A stretch of 64,000 nt of DNA. It comes from Conexibacter sp. SYSU D00693 (lineage in GTDB: Bacteria; Actinomycetota; Thermoleophilia; Solirubrobacterales; Solirubrobacteraceae). Below, one piece after another: positions 41,139-58,674 of the stretch. A model generated the notes under the pieces. It made no database searches. It was not told the origin of the DNA and saw nothing but the letters and a program-made list of their open reading frames with translations. Both the position numbers and the translations under genes were made by a program. Numbering within the stretch: position 1 is the first letter of the stretch; each line of letters begins with the position of its first letter. The stretch is taken from positions 1,302,001 to 1,366,000 of the forward strand of contig NZ_CP070950.1 in assembly GCF_017084525.1 (NCBI RefSeq), written 5' to 3'.

Positions 41139-41141
41139 CGC

Positions 41142-42931: not shown

Positions 42932-44146
42932 TCACGCGTCCATCCCCAGCGGCCCGCGCGCGGTGCCCGAGAGGAACTGGCGCACGAACGGCGTCTCGGA
43001 GGCGAAGACCGCGTCGGCGAGGCCGCTCTCGAGCACCTGCCCGCGCCAGACGATCGAGACGTGGTCGGCGATGCGGCGGGCCAGCGCGACGTCGTGGGTG
43101 ACCACGACCATCGTCCCGCCGTACTGCGCGTGCTGGTCGGCGAGCAGGTCGCCCAGCAGCGCGGTGCGCACGGGGTCCAGCCCCGAGTCGGGCTCGTCGC
43201 ACAGCACGATGCCGGGGTCCATGACCAGCGCGCGCGCCAGGCCCGCGCGCTTGCGCATGCCGCCCGAGAGCTGGTTGGGCATCCGGTGCGCGGCGCCGAG
43301 CAGGCCCACGTCGGCGAGGTGGCGCTCGACGACCTGGCGCACCTCGTCCTCGTCGAGGTCGGTGTGCTGACGCAGCGGGAAGGCGACGTTGTCGTAGACG
43401 TCCATCGCGCTGAACAGGGCGCCGTCCTGGAACATGACCCCGATCTCGCTGCGCAGGTCCAGGACCTCGGCGCGGCTCATGCGGCTCAGCGCGCGGCCCC
43501 GGATGAGGACCTCGCCGCCGTCGGGGCGCATGAGGCCGATGACGTGCTGGAGCAGGACGCTCTTGCCCGTCCCGGAGGGACCGAGCACGACGGAGACGAC
43601 GCCCGCGGGCACCTGGAGGTCCAGGCCGCTGAGCACCGTCGTCGGCCCGAACGCCTTGCGCAGGTCGCGCGTCTCGATCGCCAGCAGCGACGGGTCGAGG
43701 GGTCCCGCGGCCGTGGCCGGCGGCGGGGCCGGCCGCGTCTCCTGCGTCACCGGCGCGCCGCGCTCCTCGGCCACCGCGCGCAGGGCGGTGCGCAGCATCG
43801 GCTCCACCTCGAGCAGGCGCAGCGCCGGGCCCTCGGCCCGCACCGCGCCGGAGACCACCGCGGCGGGCAGCGCGAGGCGTCCCTCGGCGAGCCGCTCGGC
43901 CGCCGCGCCGTCGAGCTGCACCGTCACCTCGGCGGGCTCGTCGAGGACGACCGCGGGCTCGTCGCGGTCGAGCAGGAGCGTCACCGCGCGGCCGTCGCCG
44001 GCGAGGCGGAACGCGACGCTCGTCCGCGCGTGGCACAGCCGCGCGCGCAGGCCTTCGTCGGTGCGCAGCGCAGCCTCGAGCGCCCCGGCGAGCCGGTCGG
44101 CGCCCGCGACCTCGCGGCGCATGCGCTCGTCGACGGGCACCGTCAC
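42932..44146 (-). CDS. Mce ATPase (MceG/MlaF-like) with N-terminal SCP2-like domain
   Basis: 404 residues. Residues ~155-400 form an MlaF/Mkl-type ABC ATPase: Walker A GPSGTGKS (189-196), signature QLSGGMRKRAGLARALVMDP, Walker B IVLCDEPDSGLDP, switch His in VVVTHD. It should energise both YrbE permease pairs. Residues ~15-125 resemble a sterol-carrier-protein-2 fold (FRLAGDGRAVTLLLDRDEPAV then AEVTVQLDGAAAERLAEGRL and a basic C-terminal helix), joined by a Pro/Ala linker. SCP2 domains bind acyl-CoA, sterols or phospholipids, so the fusion could sense or accept substrate at the ATPase. The domain call is by eye and needs a profile search. GTG start follows immediately after the TAG of the upstream gene. 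Confidence 0.85.
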   Translation of the reverse strand: MTVPVDERMRREVAGADRLAGALEAALRTDEGLRARLCHARTSVAFRLAGDGRAVTLLLDRDEPAVVLDEPAEVTVQLDGAAAERLAEGRLALPAAVVSGAVRAEGPALRLLEVEPMLRTALRAVAEERGAPVTQETRPAPPPATAAGPLDPSLLAIETRDLRKAFGPTTVLSGLDLQVPAGVVSVVLGPSGTGKSVLLQHVIGLMRPDGGEVLIRGRALSRMSRAEVLDLRSEIGVMFQDGALFSAMDVYDNVAFPLRQHTDLDEDEVRQVVERHLADVGLLGAAHRMPNQLSGGMRKRAGLARALVMDPGIVLCDEPDSGLDPVRTALLGDLLADQHAQYGGTMVVVTHDVALARRIADHVSIVWRGQVLESGLADAVFASETPFVRQFLSGTARGPLGMDA

Positions 44147-46468
44147 CTAGGGCCGCCCTGCACCGGCCATCGCGAGGTACCGGCTCACCGCCTCCACGCG
44201 GTTGGCGGCCCCGAGCTTGCGCAGGATCCGGGCGACGTGGCCCTTCACCGTCTCGGGCGACAGGACGAGCTCCTCCGCGATCTCGCGGTTGGAGCGTCCC
44301 GCGACCATCCCGCGGAGGATGTCCCGCTCGCGGTCGCTGAGCGGTGTCTCGGTCGCCGGCGCGTCGGGCTGGCCGTCCCACGCGAAGAGGGGACGCAGGC
44401 CCGGGCCCGACGGCAGCTCGAGGGCCGCGTGCTCGAGCTCGGAGAACAGCGCCTGGGCCGAGGCCGTGAGGTGGCGCAGCTCGCTGGTGACCTCCCGCAC
44501 GCGCCGGCGCAGGAGCACCTGCTCGAGGGCGACGCCCAGGACGCCGGCGAGGTCGACGACCGACGCGTGCTCGGCGTCGGTGACCTCGGGCCCGTCGCGG
44601 TCGACGACGAGCACCGCCAGCGGCGTGCCCGACGGGCTGACGGCGCCCAGCGCGAAGGCCCGCAGTTCGAGCTCCTCCGCGAGGGTGCTCGCGGTCCACG
44701 CGCCCGTGCCGCCGCGACCCAGCGCCGCGGCTTCGACGGTGCGCGCCTGGAGGGCGACGGGCCGGGCGAGCACCTGGCGGCGCAGGCGGTCGCTCGCCGG
44801 GTCGGCCAGCGCGCCGCTGTCCTCGGCGGTGAGCCGGGTCGGGCCGACGGTCAGCACGAGCGCGCGGTCGAACCCGAGGACCTGGCGGGCGAGGTCGGCG
44901 CCCTGCGCGAAGAGGCCACGGACGTCCTCCGCCGCGCGCAGGCGGTCGAGCAGTGCCAGGAGCGGGGCGCCGGGCCCCTGCGCCGTGGCGTCCTGCTCGG
45001 CCGGCGCCGGCGCCGGCGCCGCGTCGGGCGTCGCGGAGCGCAGCGGCGTCGCCACGTCGGGGTGCTCGTCGGCCCACGCCCGCAGCGTGCGCAGGTCGGG
45101 GTCCTCGTCGACGCTCGTGGCGACCGTCGGCAGCTCGCCGGCGTACACCTCGCCGCGGCCGCCGTCGACGGTCACGACCTTGCCGCGCAGGCGGTCGACG
45201 GTGCCCGCGCCGCAGCCGACGACGCACGGACGGCCGAGCTCGCGGCTGACGACGGCGGCGTGGGAGGTGGACCCGCCCAGCTCCGTCACGATGGCCGTCG
45301 CGGCGATCATGCCGTGCACGTCGTCGGGGTCGGTCGTGGGGCGCACGAGCACGACCTCGCGCTCGTCGGCGAGGTCCTCGGCCTCCTCGGCGTCGACGGC
45401 CACGAGGCCGGACGCGACGCCGGGGCAGGCCGGCTCGCCGGAGGCCAGCAGCTCGGCGCCGGCGCGCGCCTCGGCCGGGACGTGCGGGCGCAGCAGCGCG
45501 TCGACGTCGGCCTTGCCCACCCGACCCAGGGCCTCGGCGGGCGTCAGCAGCCCCTCCTGGGCCAGGGCCACCGCGAGGCGGACGGTCGCCTCGGGCGAGC
45601 GCTTGGCGGCTCGCGTCTGCAGCAGCCACAGCCGGCCCGCCTCGACGGTGAACTCCACGTCCTGGACGTCGCGGCCGTCCTGCTCGAGGCGGCGGGCGGC
45701 GGCGAGCAGCTCCTCGAGCAGCGCGGGCTCGCGCGCGCCGAGCTCGCTGAGCGGCAGGGGGTCGTGGCGGCCCGACACGACGTCCTCGCCCTGGCCGCGC
45801 GGCAGGTACTCGCCGAAGGGCTCGGGGGCGCCGGTCAGGGGGTTGCGGCTGAACAGCACGCCGGTGCCCGACCGGTCGTCGAGGTTGCCGAAGACCATCG
45901 CCTGGACGGTGACGGCGGTGCCGCCGTCGTCCGGGAGCCCGTGGTGGCGGCGGTAGGTCTGCGCGCGCTCGGAGTGCCAGGAGGCGAAGACGGCCGCCGC
46001 GGCGTCGGCGAGCTGCTGCCACGGGTCGTCGGGCGGCGCGTGGCCGACGACCTTCGTGAACTGCTCGACGAAGCGGCGGCGGCTGTCGGCGGCGAACGCG
46101 GCGTCCCCGGTGGCCTGCGCCACGCGCTCCTGCACCGCCGGCGCGAGGCCGAGGTTCAACACGGTGTCCATCATCCCGGGCATGCTGCGCGCGGCGCCCG
46201 AGCGGACGCTCAGCAGCATGGGCACCGCGCCGCCGGCGAAGGTCCGCCCGAGCTCGCCCTCGAGCCAGGCGACGCCCTCGTGCAGCGCCTCGCGCGCGCC
46301 GTCGGGCAGCACGCCGCCGGCCGCGTGGAAGGCCGAGCACGCGGTCGTGGGCAGGCAGAAGGCGGGCGGCACCGGCAGGCCGAGCGCGCGCATGCGGTTG
46401 AGCCCCCAGGCCTTGCCGCCGAGCAGCTCGCGGCCCAGGCCGACCGTCCCGTCGAGGCGGACGAGCAC
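44147..46468 (-). CDS. PPDK-like ATP-grasp + phosphohistidine domain fused to GAF and LuxR-type HTH
   Basis: 773 residues. ~1-310: pyruvate phosphate dikinase/PEP synthase N-terminal ATP-binding domain (GGKAWGLNRM, LLSVRSGAARSMPGMMDTVL, GVLFSRNPLTG, DVEFTVEAGRLWLLQTR). ~345-445: swivelling phosphohistidine domain with His403 in TELGGSTSHAAVVSRE. There is no C-terminal PEP/pyruvate barrel. ~505-655: GAF-like sensor domain. ~708-768: LuxR-type helix-turn-helix (LSDRERDILRGMVAGRSNRE, LSPETVKGHVARILRKLGA). It could autophosphorylate from ATP and couple that state to DNA binding or pass the phosphoryl group to a partner. GTG 46468 lies five bases after the flavoprotein stop; its TAG abuts the ATPase GTG. 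Confidence 0.87.
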   Translation of the reverse strand: MLVRLDGTVGLGRELLGGKAWGLNRMRALGLPVPPAFCLPTTACSAFHAAGGVLPDGAREALHEGVAWLEGELGRTFAGGAVPMLLSVRSGAARSMPGMMDTVLNLGLAPAVQERVAQATGDAAFAADSRRRFVEQFTKVVGHAPPDDPWQQLADAAAAVFASWHSERAQTYRRHHGLPDDGGTAVTVQAMVFGNLDDRSGTGVLFSRNPLTGAPEPFGEYLPRGQGEDVVSGRHDPLPLSELGAREPALLEELLAAARRLEQDGRDVQDVEFTVEAGRLWLLQTRAAKRSPEATVRLAVALAQEGLLTPAEALGRVGKADVDALLRPHVPAEARAGAELLASGEPACPGVASGLVAVDAEEAEDLADEREVVLVRPTTDPDDVHGMIAATAIVTELGGSTSHAAVVSRELGRPCVVGCGAGTVDRLRGKVVTVDGGRGEVYAGELPTVATSVDEDPDLRTLRAWADEHPDVATPLRSATPDAAPAPAPAEQDATAQGPGAPLLALLDRLRAAEDVRGLFAQGADLARQVLGFDRALVLTVGPTRLTAEDSGALADPASDRLRRQVLARPVALQARTVEAAALGRGGTGAWTASTLAEELELRAFALGAVSPSGTPLAVLVVDRDGPEVTDAEHASVVDLAGVLGVALEQVLLRRRVREVTSELRHLTASAQALFSELEHAALELPSGPGLRPLFAWDGQPDAPATETPLSDRERDILRGMVAGRSNREIAEELVLSPETVKGHVARILRKLGAANRVEAVSRYLAMAGAGRP

Positions 46469-46473
46469 GGCCG

Positions 46474-48114
46474 CTACCCCGCCGTCACCAGGCGGCGCAG
46501 GCGACGCGCCGCCCCGCTGCCCTGACCGTCGCCGGTGCGCTGCACGAACGTCCGCGCCGCCACGTAGCCGGGGATGCCGCTGATCCCGCCGGTGGGGTGC
46601 GTGCCCGCGCCGCTGATCCACAGCCCCGGGACCGGGGTCTCGTAGGCGCCGAAGCCCTGGGCCGGGCGCAGCGGGCCGAAGCGGGCCGCCGCGGGCTCCA
46701 CGTGGTAGACGTTGCCGTCAGGCACGTGGAAGCGCTCCTCGAGGTCGGAGACGTGGAAGACGCGACGCCCGACCTCCAGGCTGTCGAGGCCCTCGTAGAC
46801 CTCGGCGCAGTCGGCCAGGACGCGGTCGCCGATCGCGTCGCGCACCGCCTCCCAGGGCTCCTGCGGGTGCATCGGCGTGATGCCCGACCACAGCCAGAAC
46901 GTGTCCTGGCCCTCGGGCGCCTGGGTCGGGTCGATGGCCGAGGGCACGATCCCGATGAAGCAGATCGGATCAGGCCAGCGCCCGCCCACCGTCTCGTCCC
47001 ACGCCTGCACGTGCTCCTCGAAGGTCTGCCAGCTCACGATGGGCTTGCGCAGGTCCAGCCCGTCGTCGCGCCACGTCCGGATCTTCTCGGCGATCTCCAG
47101 CCGGCCCGAGACGGCGACGTCGATCTTCAGCGTCCCGGTCTCCAGCACGGCGGTCGGGATGCTGTCGGCCCGGCGCTGCAGGTGGTCGGGCAGCAGCCCC
47201 TTGGGCAGCATCTGCGCGAGCGTCGCCTTCGGGCTGCAGGTCGCCATGACGTGGCCCGCGCGCAGCTCCTCGCCGTCGTCGAGGACCACGCCGACGACGC
47301 GCTCGCCCTCCACGAGCAGCGTCTCGACCTTCGCCGACGTGCGGACCTGGCCGCCGAGCTCGGTGAGGCACGAGTGCAGCGCGTCGGTCAGCGCGCCCGT
47401 GCCCCCCTGGAAGCGCGTGGACCCCGTCCGGTGGCACATGCCGACGTAGATGAGCCCCCAGGCCGTGCCGTCCTGCTTCATCCAGCAGAACGGCGGCATC
47501 GACGCGAGCGCGCCGCGGACGAGCGGGTGGTCGAAGCGCTCGGTGATGAACTGCTCGTGGGAGGTCGTGAGGAACTGCGTCAGTGGCCAGAGGTCCTTGC
47601 GCCGGCGCACCGCCGTCGGCAGGGCGGCGAGCACCGTGCGCGGATCGGGCCGCGTGGGGTGGCTGAGCATGAACGGGATGGCCAGGTCCATCGCCGCGTC
47701 GAGGCTGCGCGCGAAGTCGAGGTAGGCGGCGGCGTCCTTGCGCGAGAACCGGAGCAGCTCGTCGGCGGTGCGCCGGGGGTCCTCCCAGAACGCCAGGGAG
47801 GCGCCCGTGTCCTTGTCGACGTGGACGTGGAACGGGTCGGCCGGCAGCTGGACCAGGCCGTGGCGGCGCAGCTCGAGGTCGCGCTCGATGGGCGTCGCGC
47901 GGAACAGCGAGGCCTGGATGCCGCCCTCGTTGACGAGGTGCCCGGGGGCGCCCGCGATCACCGGGTTGGTGCTGATCATCCCGCCGACGGTCGGCGAGGC
48001 CTCCAGCACCGTGACCGCCCGTCCGGCCTTGGCCAGGTAGCAGGCGGCCGTCAGCCCGTTGTGGCCGGCGCCCACCACCAGGACGTCCGGTTCGAGGCCG
48101 TTCATCTTGTACAT
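46474..48114 (-). CDS. Phytoene-dehydrogenase-like/carotenoid-oxidoreductase-family FAD enzyme
   Basis: 546 residues. VLVVGAGHNGLTAACYLAKAG FAD motif, then TVGGMISTNPVIAGAPGHLV, and a C-terminal GLWISGAGTHPTGGISGIPG FAD contact. This is the CrtI/CrtO-like branch of the flavin amine oxidase superfamily. First gene of an operon with the PPDK-GAF-LuxR and SCP2-ATPase genes. ATG 48114 (MYKMNG) is chosen; ATG 48105 is an alternative. The long divergent promoter with dyads lies upstream. Substrate is unknown, though an isoprenoid is likely for the family. Confidence 0.85.
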   Translation of the reverse strand: MYKMNGLEPDVLVVGAGHNGLTAACYLAKAGRAVTVLEASPTVGGMISTNPVIAGAPGHLVNEGGIQASLFRATPIERDLELRRHGLVQLPADPFHVHVDKDTGASLAFWEDPRRTADELLRFSRKDAAAYLDFARSLDAAMDLAIPFMLSHPTRPDPRTVLAALPTAVRRRKDLWPLTQFLTTSHEQFITERFDHPLVRGALASMPPFCWMKQDGTAWGLIYVGMCHRTGSTRFQGGTGALTDALHSCLTELGGQVRTSAKVETLLVEGERVVGVVLDDGEELRAGHVMATCSPKATLAQMLPKGLLPDHLQRRADSIPTAVLETGTLKIDVAVSGRLEIAEKIRTWRDDGLDLRKPIVSWQTFEEHVQAWDETVGGRWPDPICFIGIVPSAIDPTQAPEGQDTFWLWSGITPMHPQEPWEAVRDAIGDRVLADCAEVYEGLDSLEVGRRVFHVSDLEERFHVPDGNVYHVEPAAARFGPLRPAQGFGAYETPVPGLWISGAGTHPTGGISGIPGYVAARTFVQRTGDGQGSGAARRLRRLVTAG

Positions 48115-48125
48115 GGCTGCCGACG

Positions 48126-48204: not shown

Positions 48205-48230
48205 ACACATGCTGTTCGAACATGCCGTCC
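48205..48230. promoter_or_regulatory. GGAC-N5-GTCC-like operator, tandem pair over a start codon
   Basis: GAACATGCCGTCC (48218-48230) contains the ATG at 48222 and is abutted by degenerate ACACATGCTGTTC (48205-48217). The element GGCGGTCCGGTGC occurs twice just upstream (48167 and 48190 region). Confidence 0.55.
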
Positions 48231-49874
48231 CCGAACGACAGGAACCCGGTGTCCGCCGAGCCGCCCAATCCGGTGCACATGGCCACGTCCGAGCATGTGC
48301 GCTGGACCACCGTGAACTTCGCCGAGGCCATCCAGGGGGTGCAGAAGCCCCTGAGCTGGGGCATGTGGTCGCTCTCCATGGAGACCTCGGTGCGCCGGAC
48401 CTTCGGCGCGCTGGGCGTCCTCCCCGCCCGGGAGGTGCCGGTGCCGGCGAGCGCCGACGAGCGGATGAGCGGCATGTTCTTCGGGCGGGCCGCGGGCAAC
48501 ATCGAGGTCTTCCGCCGGATCGGCGACGGCATGCCGGGCAGCTCGGGCGACGTCATCGAGGAGAAGCTCTTCGGCAAGGCGCCCGTCGGCGAGCCGTCGC
48601 GCAAGCCGCTGTCGGCGCTGCGACGCTACCCCGTCGTCGCGGTCAAGCTGCCGCGCGCCGCCCGGCGGCCGCCGCGCGAGCTGCGCCCGATGCGCGCCCG
48701 GTTTCGCACGTGGTGGCAGGACGCCGTCCTCGACCACCCGCCGCGCGACCTCGCCGAGGCCCAGGCGCTGCTGCGCGCGTCGGCCGACCGCTTCATCGAG
48801 GTCGGGGTGCTGCACGCGACGACGACGCTGCTGGCCAGCGCGCTGCTGGACCAGCTCGGCGCGCTGGCCGAGAAGGCCGTCGGCGACCGGGCGCTGGCGA
48901 TGGACCTCGCGACGGGCTACGGGTCCATGGAGGAGACCGAGCTCATCGAGGACCTGTGGTCGGCCTCGCAGGGGCGCCTGGCCATCGAGGCGCTGCTGCA
49001 CCGCCACGGCTACCACGGGCCCGACGAGGGCGACCTCTCCAGCCGCACCTGGCGCGAGGACCGGGCGCCGCTCGACGCGATCCTCGCCTCCTACGCCAAG
49101 AAGGACATGGCCAACCCGCGCGAGCGCGAGGTCCAGCAGCTCGCACGCCGGCAGGAGGCCGAGGCCCGGCTGCTGGCCGGCCTCGCCGCCGCCCGGCGTC
49201 CGGCGGCCCGGCTGACCATGCGCCTGGCCGGTCGCTACATCCCGCTGCGCGAGATCGGCAAGGCCGCGTTCCTGCACGCCCTCGACGGGGCCCGCTGCGC
49301 GGCCCGCGCAGGCGGCCGCGCGCTCGCCGACGCCGGGCACCTCGACGACCCCGACGACGCGTTCTTCCTCACCTTCGACGAGTTCCTGGGCGAGCCGTCC
49401 GGCGACCTGCGCGAGCGCGTCGCCGAGCGCCGGGAGCGCCACGAGCGCTACACGCAGCTCGTCCTGCCCCCGTCGTGGACCGGCCCGCCCGTGCCCATCG
49501 AGGTCGACCCCGACGAGGGCGCCGCCGCCGACGCGCCCAGCGCGCTGCAGGGCATCGGCGTCGTGGGCCGCCGGGTCACGGGCCGTGCCCGGGTCGTCCA
49601 CGACCCCATGGACGCCGACCTCGACGACGGCGACATCCTCGTGTGCCGCACCACGGACCCGAGCTGGACGCCGCTGTTCATGCTCGCCGACGCGCTCGTG
49701 ATCGACACGGGCGGGCAGATGAGCCACGGGGCGATCGTCGCCCGGGAGCTCGGCGTGACCTGCGTCATCAACACCGTCACGGGCACGCGCGACATCCCCG
49801 ACGGCGCGACGATCACCGTCGACGGCAGCGCCGGGACGGTCGAGATCGGGACGGTCCCCCCGGTGCCCGCCTAG
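48222..49874 (+). CDS. ATP-grasp-less rifampicin-phosphotransferase-like protein with phosphohistidine domain (copy 1)
   Basis: 550 residues from ATG 48222; ATG 48279 (MATSEH) is an alternative. The N-terminal WTTVNFAEAIQGVQKPLSW corresponds to the start of the central (substrate) domain of RPH-type phosphotransferases and PEP synthases; RHGYHGPDEGDLSSRTWRED is conserved among the three paralogs here. The C-terminal ~100 residues are a swivelling domain, CRTTDPSWTPLF then TGGQMSHGAIVARE with His502 as phospho-acceptor. The ~300-residue ATP-grasp domain found in RPH is missing, so phosphate must come in trans or the reaction differs. It forms an operon with two TetR genes 15 bases downstream. 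Confidence 0.82.
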   Translation: MPSPNDRNPVSAEPPNPVHMATSEHVRWTTVNFAEAIQGVQKPLSWGMWSLSMETSVRRTFGALGVLPAREVPVPASADERMSGMFFGRAAGNIEVFRRIGDGMPGSSGDVIEEKLFGKAPVGEPSRKPLSALRRYPVVAVKLPRAARRPPRELRPMRARFRTWWQDAVLDHPPRDLAEAQALLRASADRFIEVGVLHATTTLLASALLDQLGALAEKAVGDRALAMDLATGYGSMEETELIEDLWSASQGRLAIEALLHRHGYHGPDEGDLSSRTWREDRAPLDAILASYAKKDMANPREREVQQLARRQEAEARLLAGLAAARRPAARLTMRLAGRYIPLREIGKAAFLHALDGARCAARAGGRALADAGHLDDPDDAFFLTFDEFLGEPSGDLRERVAERRERHERYTQLVLPPSWTGPPVPIEVDPDEGAAADAPSALQGIGVVGRRVTGRARVVHDPMDADLDDGDILVCRTTDPSWTPLFMLADALVIDTGGQMSHGAIVARELGVTCVINTVTGTRDIPDGATITVDGSAGTVEIGTVPPVPA

Positions 49875-49889
49875 GCTCCCGGGCAGCAC

Positions 49890-50534
49890 GTGCCGTCGGT
49901 CACCCGCAAGCCCCGCCTCAGCCGCGCCGAGCGCCAGGAGCAGCGCCGCGACGCCATCCGCCGGCGCCTGCTGGCCGCGCTCGAGGCGCTGCTCGACGAC
50001 GGCGGCAGCTTCACCGAGCTGCCCGTCGAGGCGCTCATCCGGGAGGCCGGCGTCGCGCGGTCGACGTTCTACGTGTACTTCGAGGACAAGGGCGACCTGC
50101 TGCTCACGCTCGCCCAGGACGTCGTCGACGACCTGCTGGTCGGCGCCGCCGACTGGCTGAGCCTGGAGGCCGGAGCGACCCAGGACGACCTCGAAGCCGC
50201 CCTGCGACGCTTCGCCGCGACCTACGTCCAGCACCGGGTCATCGTCGCCGCCATCGCCGAGACCGCGCCGCACGACGCGCGGCTGGGCGAGCTGCTCGAC
50301 ACGCGGCTCGACCAGCTCGTGCGGGAGCTCGCCGGGCACCTCGCCGCCGGCCAGGAGCGCGGGCTCGTGCGCCGCTCGCTGGACCCCGAGCCGATCGCCG
50401 TGTGGGTCAGCGCCCTGCTCGAGCGCGGCCTGCACCAGCTCGCCGGCCCCGGCACCCCCGCCGAGCCCGACCGCGCCGCCGCCGCCCTGGCGCCGCTGCT
50501 GTGGAACGCCCTCTACCGGGAGCCGGCCGCGTGA
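49890..50534 (+). CDS. TetR-family transcriptional regulator (first of a coupled pair)
   Basis: 214 residues from GTG 49890. Recognition segment REAGVARSTFYVYFEDKGDL (~residues 51-70). Close paralog of the TetR at 14329 (same MPSVTR start, same recognition helix), so both may bind GGAC-N5-GTCC. Overlaps the next TetR gene by GTGA. Co-transcribed with the phosphohistidine protein, whose promoter has that motif. Confidence 0.92.
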   Translation: MPSVTRKPRLSRAERQEQRRDAIRRRLLAALEALLDDGGSFTELPVEALIREAGVARSTFYVYFEDKGDLLLTLAQDVVDDLLVGAADWLSLEAGATQDDLEAALRRFAATYVQHRVIVAAIAETAPHDARLGELLDTRLDQLVRELAGHLAAGQERGLVRRSLDPEPIAVWVSALLERGLHQLAGPGTPAEPDRAAAALAPLLWNALYREPAA

Positions 50535-51172
50535 GCGCGACCGACCGGCGGGCCGCGGCGCGCAGCGGTCGCCGGGCCGAGCTGGGCACGAAGCTCCTGC
50601 CCGCGGTCGAGCGGCTGCTCGCCGACGGCGCGAGCTTCACGGAGCTCAGCGTGGACGAGCTGCTGGCCGAGGCCGGCGTGGCGCGCTCGACCTTCTACAA
50701 GGCCTTCGAGGGCAAGGGCGACCTGCTCGTCGAGTGGCTGGGCCAGATCGTCGACGAGCTCGAGCAGGCCGCCGACGCGTGGTTCACGCTCGGCGGGGAC
50801 GCCCGGCGCGAGGAGCTCGCCGCGGCGCTCGCCGAGACGATGCGCGCCTACGCCCCGCACGCGGTGGTGATGAGCGCCGCGTACGAGGTGGCGCCCTTCG
50901 ACGCCGCCGTCGGGGCGGCCCTGCACGACCTGTCGACGCGCGGGGTCGCCGGGCTGCGCCAGCACCTCAAGCGCGGCCAGCGCGAGGGCTGGGTCGACGC
51001 GGCGCTCCCGGCCGACGAGACCGCGACCTTCCTCACCGCGATGGGCGAGCGCGCCTACCAGCAGCTGCGCCGGCTGGGCGCCGAGCACGACCTCGACCGG
51101 TTGCGCGCCGCGCACACGGACCTGGTCTGGCACGCCCTCTACGCGCACGCGCCGGCCCACGCCCCGGGCTAG
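50531..51172 (+). CDS. TetR-family transcriptional regulator (second of a coupled pair)
   Basis: 213 residues from GTG 50531, overlapping the preceding stop. Recognition segment AEAGVARSTFYKAFEGKGDL differs from its neighbour at the tip (KAF for VYF), so specificity may differ or the two may form heterodimers. Its ligand domain (AYAPHAVVMSAAYEVAPFDA) is similar to that of the 14329 regulator (TYRPHVTLMAATYDTAAYDV). Stop overlaps the convergent gene as CTAG. Confidence 0.92.
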   Translation: MSATDRRAAARSGRRAELGTKLLPAVERLLADGASFTELSVDELLAEAGVARSTFYKAFEGKGDLLVEWLGQIVDELEQAADAWFTLGGDARREELAAALAETMRAYAPHAVVMSAAYEVAPFDAAVGAALHDLSTRGVAGLRQHLKRGQREGWVDAALPADETATFLTAMGERAYQQLRRLGAEHDLDRLRAAHTDLVWHALYAHAPAHAPG

Positions 51173-52764
51173 GCCGGCGCGGGCTGCGCCCCCACGGCCT
51201 CGAGGACGTCGACCGTCCCCTTCGACCCGTCGACGCGGACGAGGTCGCCCGTGCGGATCGCGGCGGTCCCGGTCCGCGTGCCGGTGACGCACGGGATGCC
51301 CAGCTCCCGGGCGACGATCGCGCCGTGGCTGATCGGTCCCCCGATGTCGACGACCAGCGCCGAGGCCATGACCATCACCGAGGCCCAGCTCGGGTCCGTC
51401 GTGCGGCAGACGAGCACCTCCCCCGGCTCGAGCTCCTCGTCGCCGTCCGGGTCGACGATGAGCCGCGCGCGGCCCTCGACGACGCCGGGGCTCACGGCGA
51501 TCCCGGAGACGACCACCTCCTCGCGCGCGCCGCGGCCGTCGCCGCGCGGCCGGGGCTCCGGCTCGCCCTCCCACGACTCGGGGAGGTCGAGCTCGAGGTG
51601 GCGCTCGTGCGCCGCGCGGCGCTCGGCGGCCACCTCGCGCAGGCCCGGCGCCGGCACCGGGGCCAGCAGCTCCTCGAGCGTGAGCATGAAGACGTCCTCG
51701 GGGTCGTCGAGCACGCCGTCGGCGACGAGCTCACGCCCGAGCGCGCGAGCGGCGGTCCGTGCCACGTCCGAGCACTGCAGGAACGTCGCCTTGCCGACGC
51801 CGCGCAGCGGGATGAGGCGCCCGGCCAGGGCGAGGACGAGCCGGGCCGGCGGGCGGCGCACCGGCGCCAGCGCGCCCAGCAGCTCCTGCTCGGCGGCGCG
51901 GCGCTCGAGGGCGCGCCCGGCCTCGACCGCGCGCGGCTCGCGCTCGTCGGGCAGGTCGCGGTAGGAGGCGGCGAGCGCCTCCACCGGGTCCGGCCGCAGG
52001 CGCCACGTGCGCGCCGACAGCTCGCCCTCGTTGGGCCCGTGGAAGCCGTGGCGGCGCAGGAACGCCTCGAGCTCCAGGCGCCCGCGCGAGAGCGCCCACA
52101 TGTCGGCCACCACGTCGGTCTCGGCCATGTCGCCGTAGCCCGTGACCAGGCGGATCTCGAGGCCCGGCCGGCCCGCCCGCTCGGCCAGCGCGCGGACCTG
52201 CTCGTACAGCGACTGGCAGAGCATCGCCGCCAGCGTGTGCGGGCGCATGACCTCCTCGTGGCGCCGCGCGGCCTCGGCGAGGACGGCGCGGGCGGCGGCG
52301 GCGCTCGCGGGCGGCGCGTCGAACGTCGTGCGCTCCCACCACGGACGGATCTCCGCGGAGGCGTCGCGCAGGCGCGCGGCGACCCGGGCGACCGCGAGCG
52401 GCGCCTTGGCCGCCACCGCCGGGTAGCGGCGCCGGCTCGAGCGGTCCTCGAGCCCGGGTCGCACGGTGCCGAAGATCTGCTGCTCGATGGCGTCGGCGCT
52501 CGTGCCGGGCATGAGGTCGCCCAGCCAGCGGAAGGTGTCGAGGTTGGCCGCGGCCCGGCCGAGGAAGAGGTCCCACATCCGCTCCTCGCGCCGCTCGGGC
52601 GCCCGGACCTCGGAGGCCCTGAGCACCCCGAGGTCGCAGAACGCCCCGCGGAACGCCCGCTCGACGTTGTCGCCGAAGAAGCTCCAGGTCAGCGGCGTCA
52701 CGACGCCGGGCAGGGCCTCCCCCGCGTTGATGGTCGACCACGCCACCGGCCTCTCGCCCGTCAT
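51169..52764 (-). CDS. ATP-grasp-less rifampicin-phosphotransferase-like protein with phosphohistidine domain (copy 2)
   Basis: 531 residues. WSTINAGEALPGVVTPLTWS marks the start of the RPH-type central domain; RHGFHGPNEGELSARTWR is the shared internal motif; the C-terminal swivel has TTDPSWASVMVM and IGGPISHGAIVARELG with His480. There is no ATP-grasp region. Divergent from the TetR at 52843 across the TGAAAG-N2-CTTTCA operator, so control differs from copy 1. Confidence 0.82.
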   Translation of the reverse strand: MTGERPVAWSTINAGEALPGVVTPLTWSFFGDNVERAFRGAFCDLGVLRASEVRAPERREERMWDLFLGRAAANLDTFRWLGDLMPGTSADAIEQQIFGTVRPGLEDRSSRRRYPAVAAKAPLAVARVAARLRDASAEIRPWWERTTFDAPPASAAAARAVLAEAARRHEEVMRPHTLAAMLCQSLYEQVRALAERAGRPGLEIRLVTGYGDMAETDVVADMWALSRGRLELEAFLRRHGFHGPNEGELSARTWRLRPDPVEALAASYRDLPDEREPRAVEAGRALERRAAEQELLGALAPVRRPPARLVLALAGRLIPLRGVGKATFLQCSDVARTAARALGRELVADGVLDDPEDVFMLTLEELLAPVPAPGLREVAAERRAAHERHLELDLPESWEGEPEPRPRGDGRGAREEVVVSGIAVSPGVVEGRARLIVDPDGDEELEPGEVLVCRTTDPSWASVMVMASALVVDIGGPISHGAIVARELGIPCVTGTRTGTAAIRTGDLVRVDGSKGTVDVLEAVGAQPAPA

Positions 52765-52781
52765 CGGACGACCCTACCCGC

Positions 52782-52803
52782 AAGCTGAAAGGTCTTTCAA
52801 CTT
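52782..52803. promoter_or_regulatory. TGAAAG-N2-CTTTCA palindromic operator
   Basis: TGAAAGGTCTTTCA (52786-52799), extended by AAG and CTT on the flanks. It lies in the divergent gap between phosphohistidine copy 2 and the TetR gene and matches the two copies at 55500-55535. Confidence 0.72.
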
Positions 52804-52842
52804 CGGGTGGGCAGCGGCCGCCCGGCGTGGCAGGATGGGCCC

Positions 52843-53472
52843 ATGGCGGAGGTCGCAGCCCCGGTCGGACGACGCGAGCGCACGCGGCGCCGGCTCCTCG
52901 ACGCCGCCCGCGAGCTCATCACCGAGAAGGGCGTCGCGGGGCTGCGCATCCAGGAGATCACCGAGGGCGCCGGCGTCGCGCTGGGCTCCTTCTACAACCA
53001 CTTCGCCTCCAAGGAGGAGCTCGTCGAGGCGGTCGTCGGCGAGAGCCTCAGCGCGCTGGCCGAGACGGTCTCGCGGCCGACGGGCGCCGACCAGGACCCC
53101 GCCGAGCTCGTGTCCAACGCGATCCGGCGCTTCGTCGCCCGGGCCTACGAGGACCCCGACTTCGCGCGGCTCGTCGTCCACCTCGAGCACGCCGACGCGC
53201 TGTTCATGTCGGCCGTCTGGCCCGCCGCCCACGCCGCCCTCGAGGAGGGCGTCGCCGCCGGGCGCCTCAAGCCGCTGCAGGTCGACCTCGCCGTCACGAC
53301 GATCCTCGGCGGTGCCCTGTCGCTCATGCGCGCGATCGTCGACGGGCGCATCGGCCCGGGCGCCGAGACCGCCTACGCGGAGATGTGCCTGCGGGCCCTC
53401 GGCCTCCCCGCCCGCCAGGCGGCGGCGGTGGCCAACCGGCCACTGCCCCCGCTGGTCGACGCGACCGGCTAG
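52843..53472 (+). CDS. TetR-family transcriptional regulator, likely owner of the TGAAAG operator
   Basis: 209 residues from ATG 52843. RERTRRRLLDAARELITEKG then recognition segment EGAGVALGSFYNHFASKEEL (~residues 40-59), a FadR/AcrR-like N-terminus unlike the RSTFY group. Its position beside TGAAAGGTCTTTCA, which is repeated twice before the AveC-like operon, suggests it controls both. Ends with the CTAG stop overlap. Confidence 0.92.
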   Translation: MAEVAAPVGRRERTRRRLLDAARELITEKGVAGLRIQEITEGAGVALGSFYNHFASKEELVEAVVGESLSALAETVSRPTGADQDPAELVSNAIRRFVARAYEDPDFARLVVHLEHADALFMSAVWPAAHAALEEGVAAGRLKPLQVDLAVTTILGGALSLMRAIVDGRIGPGAETAYAEMCLRALGLPARQAAAVANRPLPPLVDATG

Positions 53473-54521
53473 GCGGCGCCCTCCACCGCCAGGAACCGGT
53501 CGCGCATCGCGCGCTGGAAGTCGTCGAACCAGATCTCCTGGTAGCTGGCGTGGGTCGTGCGGCCCCGCTCGTCCTGCCAGCGGAAGACGGAGTCGTGGAA
53601 GGAGACGTTGGGCCAGGCCGGCAGCGTCGCGGTGGCGAGCGCCTCGCCGCTGAAGCGGTGCGCGGCGCCGGTCTCGTCGACCAGCTCGAGCTCCTGGCGC
53701 AGGGCCATGTAGGTGAAGGGGTCGCGCTCGAGCACGTCGCGGCGCACCGAGCGCACGTCGCGGGCCTCGCCGTCCACGACGATCCACGCGAAGTGGTGGG
53801 TCGGGCGGTCCGGCGGCACCTGGTAGATCCCCGCCCACGCCGGGTCGGTGTCGGGCGCCTCGAAGGACACCTGGCTGAGCACGAGGTCGTCGCCGAACCA
53901 CATCGGCGACCAGCCGACCGGCGGCACCGGCACGGCGCCCTGGCGCTCGACGCGCACCTGGCGCCACGACCGGTCGCGCGGCGCATGGCAGTCGACGGCG
54001 AAGCGCTCGCCGCGCAGCACGAGCTCGCCGGTGACGTGCATGAACTGCTCCGAGCCGCCCGGGGCCATCGACGCGTCCTGGCGCTCGTCCTCGCCCGGCA
54101 TGACGTGCCCGCGGGCGAAGAGCGGCGTCACCGCGGTCTGCGTGACGTCCAGGGAGGTGCGTCCGTCGTTGCTGGTGTAGCTGATGCGCGCGACGCGGCC
54201 GGGCTCGAGCAGCTCGATGCGCAGCCCGTTGGCGGTGGTGATCGAGTGCCCGTCGATCGCCGGCCAGGGCATCGTCATCTCGTAGTCGACGAAGTCCATG
54301 TCGGTGACCTGGACGTTGCCGCGCCCGCGGAAGAGGCAGACCCCGCCCTGGCAGAGCGGGAAGGCCGGCTGGTAGCGGACGTAGAGGAACGCGCCGATCT
54401 CGGCCTCGGGGATGCTGAAGCCGAAGTAGTGCGTGTGGATCGTGTGCGGCTCCCACGCCGCGCCGTCCTCCGGCAGGGGCAGCCAGAGGTCCGACGCGGC
54501 GGGGTGGGTCTCGAGCGCCAT
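53469..54521 (-). CDS. Lipocalin-like protein of the DUF7064/7065 (AttH/CrtC-like) type
   Basis: 350 residues, soluble, beta-rich, no signal peptide seen. The CHAPRDRSWRQVRVER motif in the middle matches the GHRDRSWG hallmark of proteins related to AttH, carotenoid 1,2-hydratase CrtC and Svf1, which form two lipocalin-like barrels and bind or modify hydrophobic molecules. A second member is at 57137. It follows the AveC-like gene by six bases in the same operon, controlled by the TGAAAG sites. Function not established. Confidence 0.72.
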   Translation of the reverse strand: MALETHPAASDLWLPLPEDGAAWEPHTIHTHYFGFSIPEAEIGAFLYVRYQPAFPLCQGGVCLFRGRGNVQVTDMDFVDYEMTMPWPAIDGHSITTANGLRIELLEPGRVARISYTSNDGRTSLDVTQTAVTPLFARGHVMPGEDERQDASMAPGGSEQFMHVTGELVLRGERFAVDCHAPRDRSWRQVRVERQGAVPVPPVGWSPMWFGDDLVLSQVSFEAPDTDPAWAGIYQVPPDRPTHHFAWIVVDGEARDVRSVRRDVLERDPFTYMALRQELELVDETGAAHRFSGEALATATLPAWPNVSFHDSVFRWQDERGRTTHASYQEIWFDDFQRAMRDRFLAVEGAA

Positions 54522-54527
54522 CGCGGG

Positions 54528-55454
54528 CTAGGAGGCCGCCGCGCCGAGCGCCGGGGCGGGTGCGCCGACGGGGACCCGGCCGGGCGCCGGCGCCCCGGGC
54601 ACCGGCGCGCTGCCGGGGACCGGGGGCGGCGGGTCGCCCGACAGCGCCTCGCGCAGGAGCTCGAGCTTGGTGAGCCTGCGCACCTGCTCGGCGGGACGCC
54701 CGACGAGGAAGCCGAGCATCCACACGACGTAGAGCGCGAGCAGGAACGTGGCGAGGGCCGCGAGGTGCGTCCACACCAGGGAGATGCCCTCGTTGTTCAG
54801 CGTGATCCACATCGGCCAGCCGATGCCGGCGTTCGTGATGCCGTCGACCATCGGGATGATCGGGATCACGCCGAGGATCCGCCAGCCGGTGAGGTGGGGC
54901 CGCAGGCGGTAGATGAGCGCGCCGCCGATCATCGGCATGAGCGGGTTCATGAGCGTCCACCACAGCGGCAGGCCCCAGAAGTCCAGCGGCTGGGAGCCGT
55001 AGTACTCGTAGGCGCCCAGGAGCACGCCCGGGCTCTCGAGCCAGATGTTCACGCCGCAGTCGATGAGGTACAGCGCGAACATCCCGCGGGCGGTGATGCC
55101 GGCCGCGTACAGGCGGTAGGCGATGTACGCCAGGCCGCCGACGTACCACGTGTAGACGAACGGGATGAACAGCGGCATCGTCCGGTCGAGGATCGTGTAC
55201 GTCGAGAGCTCCGCGCCCTCCTTGATGTAGCAGAGCCCCATCGTGTCGACGATGGGCTCCCAGACGCACGCGAGGAGGCCGCCGGCGAGGCAGACGAGCA
55301 GCAGCGGCTCCTTGCCCGCGCGCAGGTGGCGCAGGCCGATGGTGAGCAGGAGCGCCACCGGGATGCCCAGGAAGATCGTGAAGATGATCTCGGGGGTGAG
55401 CGGCATCACGCTGTCGGGATGCACGGGGATCGCTGCGAGCACGTCGAACGGCAC
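54528..55454 (-). CDS. Polytopic membrane protein related to the AveC family
   Basis: 308 residues, about seven to eight hydrophobic helices, with a Pro/Ala-rich cytoplasmic tail (~265-308). NIWLESPGVLLGAYEYYGSQ and a following W..MNPLMPM loop are similar in pattern to the AEGLVWLPLGFWEYPGG region of the AveC-like protein at 4749, so a distant relationship is probable. GTG 55454 is preceded by GGAGGAG. First gene of a two-gene operon whose promoter has two TGAAAG-N2-CTTTCA sites. Confidence 0.75.
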   Translation of the reverse strand: MPFDVLAAIPVHPDSVMPLTPEIIFTIFLGIPVALLLTIGLRHLRAGKEPLLLVCLAGGLLACVWEPIVDTMGLCYIKEGAELSTYTILDRTMPLFIPFVYTWYVGGLAYIAYRLYAAGITARGMFALYLIDCGVNIWLESPGVLLGAYEYYGSQPLDFWGLPLWWTLMNPLMPMIGGALIYRLRPHLTGWRILGVIPIIPMVDGITNAGIGWPMWITLNNEGISLVWTHLAALATFLLALYVVWMLGFLVGRPAEQVRRLTKLELLREALSGDPPPPVPGSAPVPGAPAPGRVPVGAPAPALGAAAS

Positions 55455-55499
55455 GGGTCTCCTCCAGGACTCGGTGTCGCGGCGACGCTACCAGAGAAC

Positions 55500-55535
55500 T
55501 GAAAGGACTTTCAACTTCTCCTGAAAGGGCTTTCA
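55500..55535. promoter_or_regulatory. Two TGAAAG-N2-CTTTCA operators
   Basis: TGAAAGGACTTTCA (55500-55513) and TGAAAGGGCTTTCA (55522-55535), 22 bases apart. They lie upstream of the AveC-like operon; the second overlaps the last codon and stop of phosphohistidine copy 3. Confidence 0.72.
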
Positions 55536-57140
55536 GACCCGGGCGAGGACCTCGACCGTCCCGGCCGTCCCGTCGACGCGCACGCGGTCGCCGGTGGCCA
55601 GGACGCTCGTCCCGTTGCCCGTCCCCACCACGCACGGGACGCCGAGCTCGCGGGCGACGACCGCGGCGTGGCTCAGCGCCCCGCCGAGGTCGACGACGAG
55701 CGCGCTGGAGACGAACATGATCGACGACCAGCTCGGGTCCGTCGTGCGCGCGACGAGCACCTCGTCGGGCTCCACGTCCTCGAAGCTCGGGTCGGTCACC
55801 ACCCGCGCGACGCCCTCGACCACCCCCGCGCTGACCCCGGTGCCCCGCACGACGCCGGACCCGCCGTCCGCCCCGCCCCCGGCCCCGGGCGCCGCCACCG
55901 GCACGAGCTCGGGCAGGCCGGCCCACGACGACGACGCCGGCTCCACGCGCTGGTGGGCCGCGCGCCGCTGGCGGCGGTGCTCGACCACCTCGCGCACGCC
56001 GTCGGGCAGGGCGCCGCAGAGCTCCTCGCCGGTGAGCAGGAAGACGTCGTCCGCCGCGGCCAGCACGCCGTCGGCCTCCAGCAGCGCGCCCGCCCGCCGC
56101 GCCGCCGCGCGGCCGGCGTCGACCGCCTGCAGGAACGAGCGCTTGGCCACCCCGCGCAACGGCAGCCGGGCGGCCGCGAGGCGCAGGAGCAGGGCCGCTG
56201 CCGGGCGCCGGCGGCGCGGCAGCGCGGCGAGCACCTCGGCCTGCGCCGCCGCCAGGCGCTCGCGCGCCCCGGCCTCGCCGGCCAGCGGGCTCTGGGCCTC
56301 GTCCCGGGCGGCGTAGCGCGCGACCATGGTGTGCAGGGGCGCCGGGTCCTCGCGCCAGACGCGGCTGGAGACCTCGCCCTCGTCGGGACCGTGGAAGCCG
56401 TGGCGCGCGACCACGTCGGCGACCTCGAGCTCGCCGCGCGACGCGCGCCAGATGTCGGCGACGACCGCCATCTCCGCGCCCCCGGTGCCGCTCAGCACGG
56501 CGAGGTCGCCCACCCCGGCGTCCTGCACGAGGGCGTCGAGCGCGTCGAACAGCGGCCGGATGCTGGAGAGCGTGCCCACGAGCTGCACGTGCCCGGCGCG
56601 CTCGAAGCGCGCGACGGCCTGCGCGAACAGCGCGCGGGCACCCGCGAGGTCGAGGGCGGGGGCCCGGGCCACCGCGTCGCGCCACCAGCGGTCCTGCTCG
56701 GGCGCCAGCGCGCGCAGGAGCCCCGGGAAGCGCGCGAAGGTCGTGGGCAGGCGGACGGCGATCGCGGGGTAGCGGGCGCGGGTGGGCGCGAAGGCCATGC
56801 CGGGCGGGACGGCCCCGAACATGCTGCGGATCGCCTCGGCCCCCGTCGTCCCGGGCAGGCGGTCGCCGACCAGCGCCATGAACTCGAGCTGCATCGTCAG
56901 GCGACCGTGGAACGGCCGCAGGACCCAGTCGGCGGGGTCGGCCGGCGGCGCCAGCTCGTCCCGGCGCAGCACGCCGATCTCGTGGGCCGCCCGGCGCGCC
57001 GCGCGCTCGCCCGTCGGTCCCCAGAGCGACCAGCACAGCGGTGTCATGACGCCCGGCACGGCCTCGCCGAGGTTCGTGGTCGTCCAGTGGTGGACGGCCC
57101 GCTCCGACGGCATCAGCGGGTCGGGCGGTGCGGAGCTCAC
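55533..57140 (-). CDS. ATP-grasp-less rifampicin-phosphotransferase-like protein with phosphohistidine domain (copy 3)
   Basis: 535 residues from GTG 57140. WTTTNLGEAVPGVMTPLCWS start, internal RHGFHGPDEGEVSSRVWRED, and C-terminal TTDPSWSSIMFV and LGGALSHAAVVARELG with His491. A Gly-rich linker (~430-440) joins the body to the swivel domain. No ATP-grasp domain. Second gene of an operon with the lipocalin-like gene (GTGA overlap), under the dyad at 58101-58138. Confidence 0.82.
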   Translation of the reverse strand: MSSAPPDPLMPSERAVHHWTTTNLGEAVPGVMTPLCWSLWGPTGERAARRAAHEIGVLRRDELAPPADPADWVLRPFHGRLTMQLEFMALVGDRLPGTTGAEAIRSMFGAVPPGMAFAPTRARYPAIAVRLPTTFARFPGLLRALAPEQDRWWRDAVARAPALDLAGARALFAQAVARFERAGHVQLVGTLSSIRPLFDALDALVQDAGVGDLAVLSGTGGAEMAVVADIWRASRGELEVADVVARHGFHGPDEGEVSSRVWREDPAPLHTMVARYAARDEAQSPLAGEAGARERLAAAQAEVLAALPRRRRPAAALLLRLAAARLPLRGVAKRSFLQAVDAGRAAARRAGALLEADGVLAAADDVFLLTGEELCGALPDGVREVVEHRRQRRAAHQRVEPASSSWAGLPELVPVAAPGAGGGADGGSGVVRGTGVSAGVVEGVARVVTDPSFEDVEPDEVLVARTTDPSWSSIMFVSSALVVDLGGALSHAAVVARELGVPCVVGTGNGTSVLATGDRVRVDGTAGTVEVLARV

Positions 57141-58117
57141 GCGCGTGCGGCCTCCGGGACGCCGCTGATCCCGTCGGCCAGGTTCGCGCGCAACGCCGTC
57201 GTCACCGGGCCCCGGCCGGCACGGGGGTTCGTGGAGACCTCGAGGTCGCAGAACCCGCGCCGGCCGTCGACCTCCACCTCGCAGATCGCATCGACGCACG
57301 CCACGCCGTGGTGCTCGGACACGGTGGCGCCGTAGGGCCGCGCACGCACGACGAGCTCCTCGCCTCCCGGCAGCCGCAGCACGCTCGTGCCGCCGCGGTA
57401 GGTCAGCCCGTCGGCCTCGAGCTCCACGACGACGTCCACGGCCTCGGCGTGCACGACCTCGCCCTCGCGCACCACGTAGCCGAACTGGCGCAGGGAACCG
57501 TCGACGCCGTGCCACGAGATGCAGCCGAAGGACAGCTCCGGCCCGACGGTGCCCGGCACCCAGCGGTGGTCGAGCAGCGTGTCCCAGCGCCGCACCCCCC
57601 AGCTGCGGTCCCGGTGGCCCAGGCCGTCGACCTCGTAGGTGCGGCCGCCGAGCACGATCGTCCCCGTCACCCGTCCGGAGGTCTCGAAGTGCGAGCTGGC
57701 GAAGTCGTCGACCAGCGTGCCGGCCGAGGGCGGGAAGAAGTCCGTGCGCGCGTAGAAGTCCGCGAAGCGCAGGCGCATCGAGCACCCCTCGTCGTCCACG
57801 GCGAAGACGACGTCCTCGCCGTCGAGCACGGCCAGGTAGCGCCCGCCGTGGGCGCCGAAGCCGTCGTCGCGCAGGTCCGCGTCGGTGAGCGGGGTCGCGA
57901 CGTTGCGCCGGAACTGCCGGCCGTCGCGGGTGACGAGGCCGAACCACAGCGCCGAGATGCCGCCCGCGTGATGGGGCTCGTGGCCGATGCGCACGTGGCC
58001 CCCGATGCCGGCCTCGGGTGCGTGGAACGTCATGAACGCGCTGTCCTGCCACCACTCCCCGGTCTCCGGGACCTGGCGCAGCTCGCCCTCACGACCATGG
58101 CGTACGGTGTAAGGCAC
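57137..58117 (-). CDS. Lipocalin-like protein of the DUF7064/7065 (AttH/CrtC-like) type
   Basis: 326 residues. DGLGHRDRSWGVRRWDTL is the strong family motif near the centre; WWQDSAFMTFHAPEAGIGGH near the N-terminus parallels HTHYFGFSIPEAEIGAFLY of the 53469 protein. The GTG at 58117 lies within the arms of the operator, so expression is probably blocked directly by repressor binding. First gene of the operon with phosphohistidine copy 3. Probably binds or modifies a hydrophobic molecule; reaction unknown. Confidence 0.75.
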   Translation of the reverse strand: MPYTVRHGREGELRQVPETGEWWQDSAFMTFHAPEAGIGGHVRIGHEPHHAGGISALWFGLVTRDGRQFRRNVATPLTDADLRDDGFGAHGGRYLAVLDGEDVVFAVDDEGCSMRLRFADFYARTDFFPPSAGTLVDDFASSHFETSGRVTGTIVLGGRTYEVDGLGHRDRSWGVRRWDTLLDHRWVPGTVGPELSFGCISWHGVDGSLRQFGYVVREGEVVHAEAVDVVVELEADGLTYRGGTSVLRLPGGEELVVRARPYGATVSEHHGVACVDAICEVEVDGRRGFCDLEVSTNPRAGRGPVTTALRANLADGISGVPEAARA

Positions 58118-58140: not shown

Positions 58141-58674
58141 ATGGCCGGTGCAAGTCGCGGAGGACCGCTGGACGCCGAGCTCGTCACCCGCGCCGGCGCC
58201 GCGCTCGCCGACCGCGAGGGCCTCGCCGCGCTCTCCATGCGCCGCCTGGCCACCGACCTCGGCTGCGCCGCGATGTCCCTCTACAGCCACGTCACGTCCA
58301 AGGACGAGCTGATCGACCGCATCGTCGACGCCGCCCTCGCCGACGTGGCGCCCGTCGACCCCGCGCGGCCCTGGCAGCAGGGCGTCACCGCCTTCTTCAC
58401 CGCCCTGCACGAGCTGCTGCTCGCGCGGCCGGCCATCGCCGAGGCGATGGCGCAGCGCCCCACCGAGGGCCCCGCGGCGGCCCGCCACCGCGACGCCGTG
58501 CTCGACGTGCTGCACGAGGGCGGCCTGGACCGGGACACCGCCCACGAGCTGTTCCTCACGCTGTCGTGGTGCACGCTGGGCGCGGCGCTCTACGCCGCCG
58601 GACGCCACGGCGCGGGCCGCGAGCAGTTCGCCGGCGGTCTCGCGCACCTCGTGGGCGGCTACACCGCGGACTAG
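58141..58674 (+). CDS. TetR-family transcriptional regulator (TetR_C-type ligand domain)
   Basis: 177 residues, short for the family. Helix-turn-helix recognition segment ATDLGCAAMSLYSHVTSKDE (~residues 38-57) is of the TetR(B)/AmtR-like MSLYxHV type, different from all other regulators in the window. The compact C-terminal domain is all-helical. It is divergent to the lipocalin-like operon and almost certainly binds the dyad at 58101-58138. Confidence 0.92.
   Translation: MAGASRGGPLDAELVTRAGAALADREGLAALSMRRLATDLGCAAMSLYSHVTSKDELIDRIVDAALADVAPVDPARPWQQGVTAFFTALHELLLARPAIAEAMAQRPTEGPAAARHRDAVLDVLHEGGLDRDTAHELFLTLSWCTLGAALYAAGRHGAGREQFAGGLAHLVGGYTAD

Follow-up and report, generated by a model that had tools for sequence, protein, structure and literature searches.

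How is a phosphotransferase charged with phosphate if it possesses the swivelling His domain of a dikinase, but no ATP-grasp domain? This question is raised by three stand-alone proteins resembling rifampicin phosphotransferase (RPH), all of which are encoded in a stretch of 64,000 nucleotides (the window) from Conexibacter sp. SYSU D00693 (contig NZ_CP070950.1, positions 1,302,001 to 1,366,000). The putative acceptor kinases 1 (48222-49874, + strand, 550 amino acids (aa)), 2 (51169-52764, - strand, 531 aa) and 3 (55533-57140, - strand, 535 or 526 aa, depending on whether a GTG or the ATG at 57113 is the start) carry their presumed phospho-acceptor residues, His502, His480 and His491, respectively, in the swivel domain, which follows a rifampin-binding-like domain and forms the C-terminus in kinase 1. 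The GTG start of kinase 3 overlaps the stop of the upstream DUF7065/7064 gene (57137-58117). Taken together, genomic linkage, the known split dikinases and the autophosphorylation of VadK from Mycobacterium tuberculosis make a donor-acceptor pair the best explanation, and we thus consider it likely that the RPH-like proteins are charged by the product of a nearby gene, a VadK-type truncated pyruvate phosphate dikinase (PPDK; 44147-46468).

The initial annotation had described three RPH-like proteins without ATP-grasp domain, and both this description and the motifs and His positions it quoted are correct. All three open reading frames (ORFs) are present, the swivel domain (PF00391) is the sole Pfam match in each of them (E 1.9e-21 to 2.9e-23), and a Pfam search did not find PPDK_N in any of the three. 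Kinases 2 and 3 are 48% and 41% identical to kinase 1, whose residues 246-542 align to RPH residues 563-865 (phmmer against the PDB, E 1.7e-28). The AlphaFold (AF2) model of kinase 1 (pLDDT 92.4) matches residues 285-867 of RPH-Lm (Z 33.6, 474 aligned residues), i.e., judging from the model, the rifampin-binding and swivel domains without the ATP-grasp. Thus, kinase 1 resembles RPH (PMC4844700) in having a rifampin-binding-like domain and a C-terminal swivel, but it lacks the N-terminal ATP-grasp domain and shares only 21% identity with RPH in the structural alignment; the single-chain layout of RPH is absent from all three proteins by Pfam and from kinase 1 also by its model. Profile search and structure prediction, which had been proposed as checks, revealed no hidden nucleotide-binding domain within the first 430 residues of kinase 1, this region matching the rifampin-binding domain of RPH. 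Loss of the His, the other objection raised beforehand, was not observed either, as all 32 aligned relatives keep it. The position of the active-site residue Glu667 of RPH is less uniform (Glu in 16, Gly in 14 and Gln in two of the 32 aligned members), and two of kinases 1-3 have Gly there.

The candidate donor (44147-46468, - strand) contains a PPDK-type ATP-grasp and its own swivel His (His403), but no phosphoenolpyruvate (PEP) domain; Pfam recognizes PPDK_N, PF00391 and GerE, with a weak GAF match in addition. With 710-712 bits (cut-off 456) it belongs to the truncated PPDK subfamily PRK05878, and it shares 52% identity with a VadK-type protein from mycobacteria and 64% with the truncated PPDK of a related locus (L016). 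The ATP-site motifs are kept in 31 aligned truncated PPDKs, which were chosen by the motif GG[AS]TSHAA, so that conservation of the His among them results from the selection. The initial annotation had stated that no ATP-grasp is adjacent to the RPH-like genes; this is true for the immediate neighbours, but the ATP-grasp protein 44147-46468 is encoded only one gene away from kinase 1. Apart from the candidate donor gene, the 4.43-Mb single-contig genome holds just one PPDK_N gene, which is located at 3.90 Mb and encodes a complete PEP synthase of 808 aa. The PPDK_N search found no stand-alone grasp-only gene of the PEP-synthase type, ruling out such a separate partner in the own genome. As its VadK-type kinase part is fused to a LuxR-type helix-turn-helix (HTH) and a weakly matching GAF region, the 44147-46468 protein would unite phosphorylation by ATP and control of transcription in a single polypeptide.

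Scanning about 85,000 species genomes, we obtained 67 related loci, 57 of which hold stand-alone copies of the RPH-like family. A truncated PPDK lies within 10 kb in 19 of these 57, whereas 0.18 would be expected at one truncated PPDK per 5 Mb. It is located directly upstream on the same strand in L023, L026, L028, L030, L033 and L077-L080, upstream on the same strand also in L106, which stems from the window's own taxonomic family, and on a Solirubrobacterales contig (L019) the order is acceptor-donor-acceptor inside 4.5 kb. Kinase 2 is 64% identical to the copy of L016, where a truncated PPDK is 1.8 kb off. The taxonomic family to which Mycobacterium triplex belongs was sampled with 121 genomes; a truncated PPDK is present in 15 and a full-length stand-alone RPH-like protein in five of them, and all five are among the 15 (hypergeometric p 1.5e-5); if RPH-like orphans fused to an epimerase are added, eight of eight genomes have a truncated PPDK (p 7e-9), neither value being corrected for kinship. 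In 15 of 17 cases the truncated PPDK lies within about 12 kb of a swivel protein without ATP-grasp, and the genomes of the other two have an epimerase-fused orphan elsewhere. Moreover, the stand-alone loci stem from 34 genomes, of which 27 contain a truncated PPDK that outscores every full-length PPDK of a sample from the phylum. In five Mycolicibacter genomes without truncated PPDK all copies are fused to an ATP-grasp, as judged from match position and ORF length, and a sixth, which has a truncated PPDK, also has an epimerase-fused orphan. Thus, the protein named early on as a candidate partner is of a type that clusters and co-occurs with the RPH-like family in other genomes, and of the two options left by the initial annotation, an ATP-grasp partner in trans or other chemistry, the first is now strongly favoured.

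In the phylogenetic tree the 92 rows of the RPH-like family group together with 100% support, and grasp-fused copies occur inside this group. Along starred branches, at least 13 changes of the label 'truncated PPDK nearby' are required; therefore, the proximity of acceptor and PPDK does not go back to a single inherited gene neighbourhood, an explanation that we considered and found insufficient. The closest relatives of kinase 1 are L010-L012. As kinases 1-3 sit in three different supported subgroups, they appear to be old paralogues that may have different substrates.

Other arrangements were observed as well. In Mycobacterium triplex (G211; L092 and other loci) nine stand-alone RPH-like copies are present, most of them within 220 kb around one truncated PPDK. 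A second truncated-PPDK group (L101-L105) occurs near pairs of a swivel-only protein of 121-174 aa (motif GSRESHLAIL) and a protein of 544-590 aa with an N-terminal swivel match. In three genomes (L095-L100) a PPDK-like protein of 849-935 aa with divergent grasp, swivel and PEP-binding domain is encoded between two RPH-like orphans of about 590 aa, and possibly represents a PEP-driven donor.

Some observations speak against the proposed pairing or limit it. The sampled genomes are related, which makes the p-values too optimistic, and a broad phylum sample of 197 genomes (stand-alone copies in five, truncated PPDK in five, both in three) holds too few cases for a strong co-occurrence test. Stand-alone copies without truncated PPDK are found in G209, G218, G222 and G236; the loci behind three of these genomes are on contigs of metagenome-assembled genomes, and G222 has an adjoining grasp-fused copy. 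L061-L063 have instead a separate PEP-synthase-type grasp 6 kb away, and in the window itself the donor and kinase 1 genes are divergently transcribed with one gene between them.

A division of labour of this kind has precedents, and the statement of the initial annotation that no function is described for such an arrangement does not hold. In HpeHI, CreHI and PpsAB a separate protein with an ATP-grasp acts in trans to charge a subunit that has none (PMC12167813, PMC9618137). Like kinases 1-3, the subunit without ATP-grasp has the RPH fold with substrate and swivel domains, and its swivel His, conserved in the RPH-like family, is essential. Unlike here, however, the partner is a grasp-only protein of the PEP-synthase type, whereas the 44147-46468 protein has a PPDK-type grasp and keeps its own swivel His, and one donor faces three acceptors. 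In addition, putative HpeHI-like pairs (L114-L119, L124, L127), in which the partner has a PEP-synthase-type grasp, fall outside the RPH-like group in the tree and score only 112-204 bits against the family profile, as compared to about 500-770 for full-length members.

Based on these similarities we propose that kinases 1-3 constitute the acceptor side of a split small-molecule dikinase. The 44147-46468 protein would bind ATP in its PPDK-type ATP-grasp, generate a phosphohistidine and supply phosphate to the three stand-alone RPH-like proteins at their swivel His. Each of these would hold a hydrophobic substrate in its own rifampin-binding-like domain and finally hand over the phosphate to a hydroxyl group of this substrate. 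Between the proteins, the phosphate may move from His to His via the donor's own swivel, or the acceptor swivel may dock straight on the grasp domain of the donor. The retention of a swivel His by the donors themselves suggests the His-to-His relay; overall, we regard relay and direct transfer as about evenly balanced. We infer that one donor serves all three acceptors. A PPDK-type donor with its own phospho-His, one donor apparently common to several acceptors, and a family of candidate VadK acceptors would be the new features of such a system, and a modular, ATP-driven donor feeding several kinases would also serve enzyme engineering.

The distribution of the truncated PPDK has to be weighed against other sources of phosphate. 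The complete PEP synthase at 3.90 Mb, the only other PPDK_N protein of the genome, or another housekeeping dikinase might lend its ATP-grasp, the truncated PPDK being a mere neighbour with its own regulatory job. This would be in line with the characterised split enzymes, which use a PEP-synthase-type grasp (PMC12167813), and with the grasp of this type near L061-L063. Nevertheless, it is the truncated PPDK and not PEP synthase that tracks and adjoins the stand-alone copies; PPDK_N genes occur in 183 of the 197 genomes of the phylum sample, while full-length stand-alone RPH-like copies are rare, and in the complete PEP synthase the grasp site is served by the enzyme's own swivel, rendering this explanation unlikely.

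Alternatively, the RPH-like proteins might dispense with ATP and shuttle phosphate from a phosphoester to an alcohol. HpeH alone is able to move phosphate from 4-phosphoacetophenone to acetovanillone (PMC12167813), and the phosphoryl transfer potential of tertiary steroid 25-phosphoesters is similar to that of ATP (PMC8449060). However, shuttling is a side activity of HpeHI, whose ATP-dependent phosphorylation required both subunits, and it would leave the co-occurrence with truncated PPDKs as well as the grasp fusions within the family unexplained, so that we give it very little weight. Similarly improbable, in our view, is a purely regulatory relationship, in which the truncated PPDK is a VadK-like regulator, here fused to LuxR, that reports on or controls the pathway and is linked to the RPH-like proteins by shared regulation without any phosphoryl relay. 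The LuxR-type HTH of the 44147-46468 protein would fit this role, and VadK is reported to bind enzymes of the methylcitrate cycle and to affect flux (PMC13400623); yet many truncated PPDKs beside RPH-like genes are too short for extra regions (e.g. 490 aa in L016), orphan swivels with a fully conserved His would be left without a donor, and the grasp-fused copies in genomes lacking a truncated PPDK point to catalysis.

If the truncated PPDK charges the RPH-like proteins, the neighbours of kinases 2 and 3 may indicate what happens to the phosphorylated product. Two putative phospho-lyases are encoded here on the - strand, a DUF7065/DUF7064 protein (57137-58117; PF23213, E 1.6e-35; PF23212, E 5e-36) and a DUF7064-like protein with the AttH/25-phosphosteroid-lyase fold (53469-54521; AF2 model, pLDDT 88.8). 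The model of the latter matches 25-phosphosteroid lyase (Foldseek E 1e-11, Z 24.5) and, tied with it, AttH (2ich, Z 25.0), and a family profile (A3) matched 25-phosphosteroid lyase alone among PDB sequences (E 3e-5), i.e. the protein has the same fold as, and a detectable sequence relation to, this enzyme. For the 57137-58117 protein 25-phosphosteroid lyase is likewise the only match among PDB sequences, albeit a weak one (E 0.05). Neighbours of the DUF7065/7064 type are present in 34 of 66 loci; with few exceptions they share the strand of the kinase ORF and adjoin or overlap it (taken from stop to stop). Of ten weaker ones that were checked, nine match DUF7065, some just below the Pfam cut-off, and the tenth belongs to the related Rv3169 family. 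In Sterolibacterium, 25-hydroxysteroid kinase and 25-phosphosteroid lyase dehydrate a tertiary steroid alcohol via its phosphoester (PMC8449060, PMC11061730; PDB 9fzn, 9g4c), and the logic proposed here is the same, phosphorylation of an alcohol followed by elimination of the phosphate. The Sterolibacterium kinase, however, is a single-chain enzyme with a ternary-complex mechanism, not a phospho-His dikinase as proposed for kinases 1-3. In the operon 58117-53469 a DUF7065/7064 lyase would thus remove the phosphate of the phosphoester to give an alkene. The likely chemistry is the conversion of an alcohol to a phosphoester and finally to an alkene, and we infer both this sequence of reactions and the hydrophobic nature of the substrate. 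The lyase fold is common to hydratases and pericyclases, which weighs against this assignment, as the fold alone does not decide the activity. Likely kinase-lyase chemistry on hydrophobic alcohols would tie the DUF7064/7065 domains to the RPH-like kinases.

The proposed pairing may also bear on M. tuberculosis. VadK (Rv1127c) shares with the 44147-46468 protein the PPDK-type ATP-grasp and the swivel, the lack of a PEP domain, and the ATP-site and His motifs (PMC13400623); the GAF-like and LuxR regions are additional in the window's protein, whereas VadK is described as regulatory histidine kinase. VadK autophosphorylates on His422 in an ATP- and Mg-dependent manner, and the variants His422Ala, His422Asp and Arg106Lys do not support growth on propionate, i.e. 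neither the His nor the ATP site is dispensable for it in vivo (PMC13400623). A possible partner is Rv2047c. Rv2047c-type fusions (NCBIfam PRK05865) have an RPH-like C-terminal part that includes the swivel but lacks an ATP-grasp, and occur in genomes with a truncated PPDK, but differ from kinases 1-3 by an N-terminal NAD-dependent epimerase/reductase domain and form a separate clade; in M. tuberculosis Rv2047c is encoded together with pks12. Two relatives of Rv2047c, L107 and L108, likewise have the RPH-like part without ATP-grasp. In transposon sequencing (TnSeq), rv1127c, rv2047c and pks12 have a common requirement that depends on mycobactin and is not seen in hemin (PMC7058343, Table 1). 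As mmpL5, mmpS5, mmpL11 and rv0455c show the same pattern (PMC7058343), and as the authors of the VadK study found partners from the methylcitrate cycle, this match is suggestive only. These authors propose regulation of the methylcitrate cycle, their co-immunoprecipitation table does not contain Rv2047c (PMC13400623), and the propionate phenotype of VadK is not accounted for by an RPH-like acceptor, all of which speaks against the proposed pairing; a published link between VadK and Rv2047c was not found in the literature searched.

In its widest form our proposal is that VadK-type truncated PPDKs are ATP-driven His-to-His donors, in the manner of the phosphotransferase system, for an extensive family of acceptor kinases that are encoded by genes of their own, with one donor supplying several acceptors of different substrates, several of which are coupled to DUF7065/7064 lyases for ATP-dependent dehydration, and with Rv2047c as physiological phospho-acceptor of VadK. 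We advance this tentatively, its chances being somewhat less than even. It would offer VadK, an autophosphorylating protein that is required for tuberculosis in the mouse, a first candidate for a phospho-acceptor protein, and would provide a candidate donor for orphan swivel-domain proteins that are labelled hypothetical or PEP synthase in databases.

Between donor and kinase 1 an FAD oxidoreductase of the phytoene desaturase/CrtO type is encoded (46474-48120, - strand), homologues of which are present in 13 related loci. A hydrophobic protein of 308 aa (54528-55454, - strand), which has no Pfam or NCBIfam match and is, by eye, probably an integral membrane protein, recurs in 14 related loci, and an MCE-type (Mkl-like) ABC ATPase (family assigned by eye; 42932-44146, - strand), whose gene immediately follows that of the donor in the downstream direction, has homologues in nine. 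Two long transporter loci of the MCE type lie side by side at 21686-31188 and 32927-42742 (families by eye). Together with the Mkl-like ATPase they probably import a hydrophobic substrate for the gene region, and these import loci and nearby acyl-CoA enzymes (by eye) fit a hydrophobic substrate of the kinases. Four putative regulators are encoded on the + strand: TetR-type proteins at 49890-50534 (PF00440, E 1.4e-6) and 50531-51172 (weak NCBIfam TetR matches), and TetR-like ones (gene calls, family by eye) at 52843-53472, divergent from kinase 2, and 58141-58674, divergent from the DUF7065-kinase 3 operon. The initial annotation had assigned different neighbours and operators to each kinase gene, and while the neighbours do differ, a good inverted repeat is present in only one of the three promoter gaps searched. 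This repeat, AAGCTGAAAG-nn-CTTTCAACTT (52782-52803), lies between kinase 2 and the divergent regulator gene and is a possible operator.

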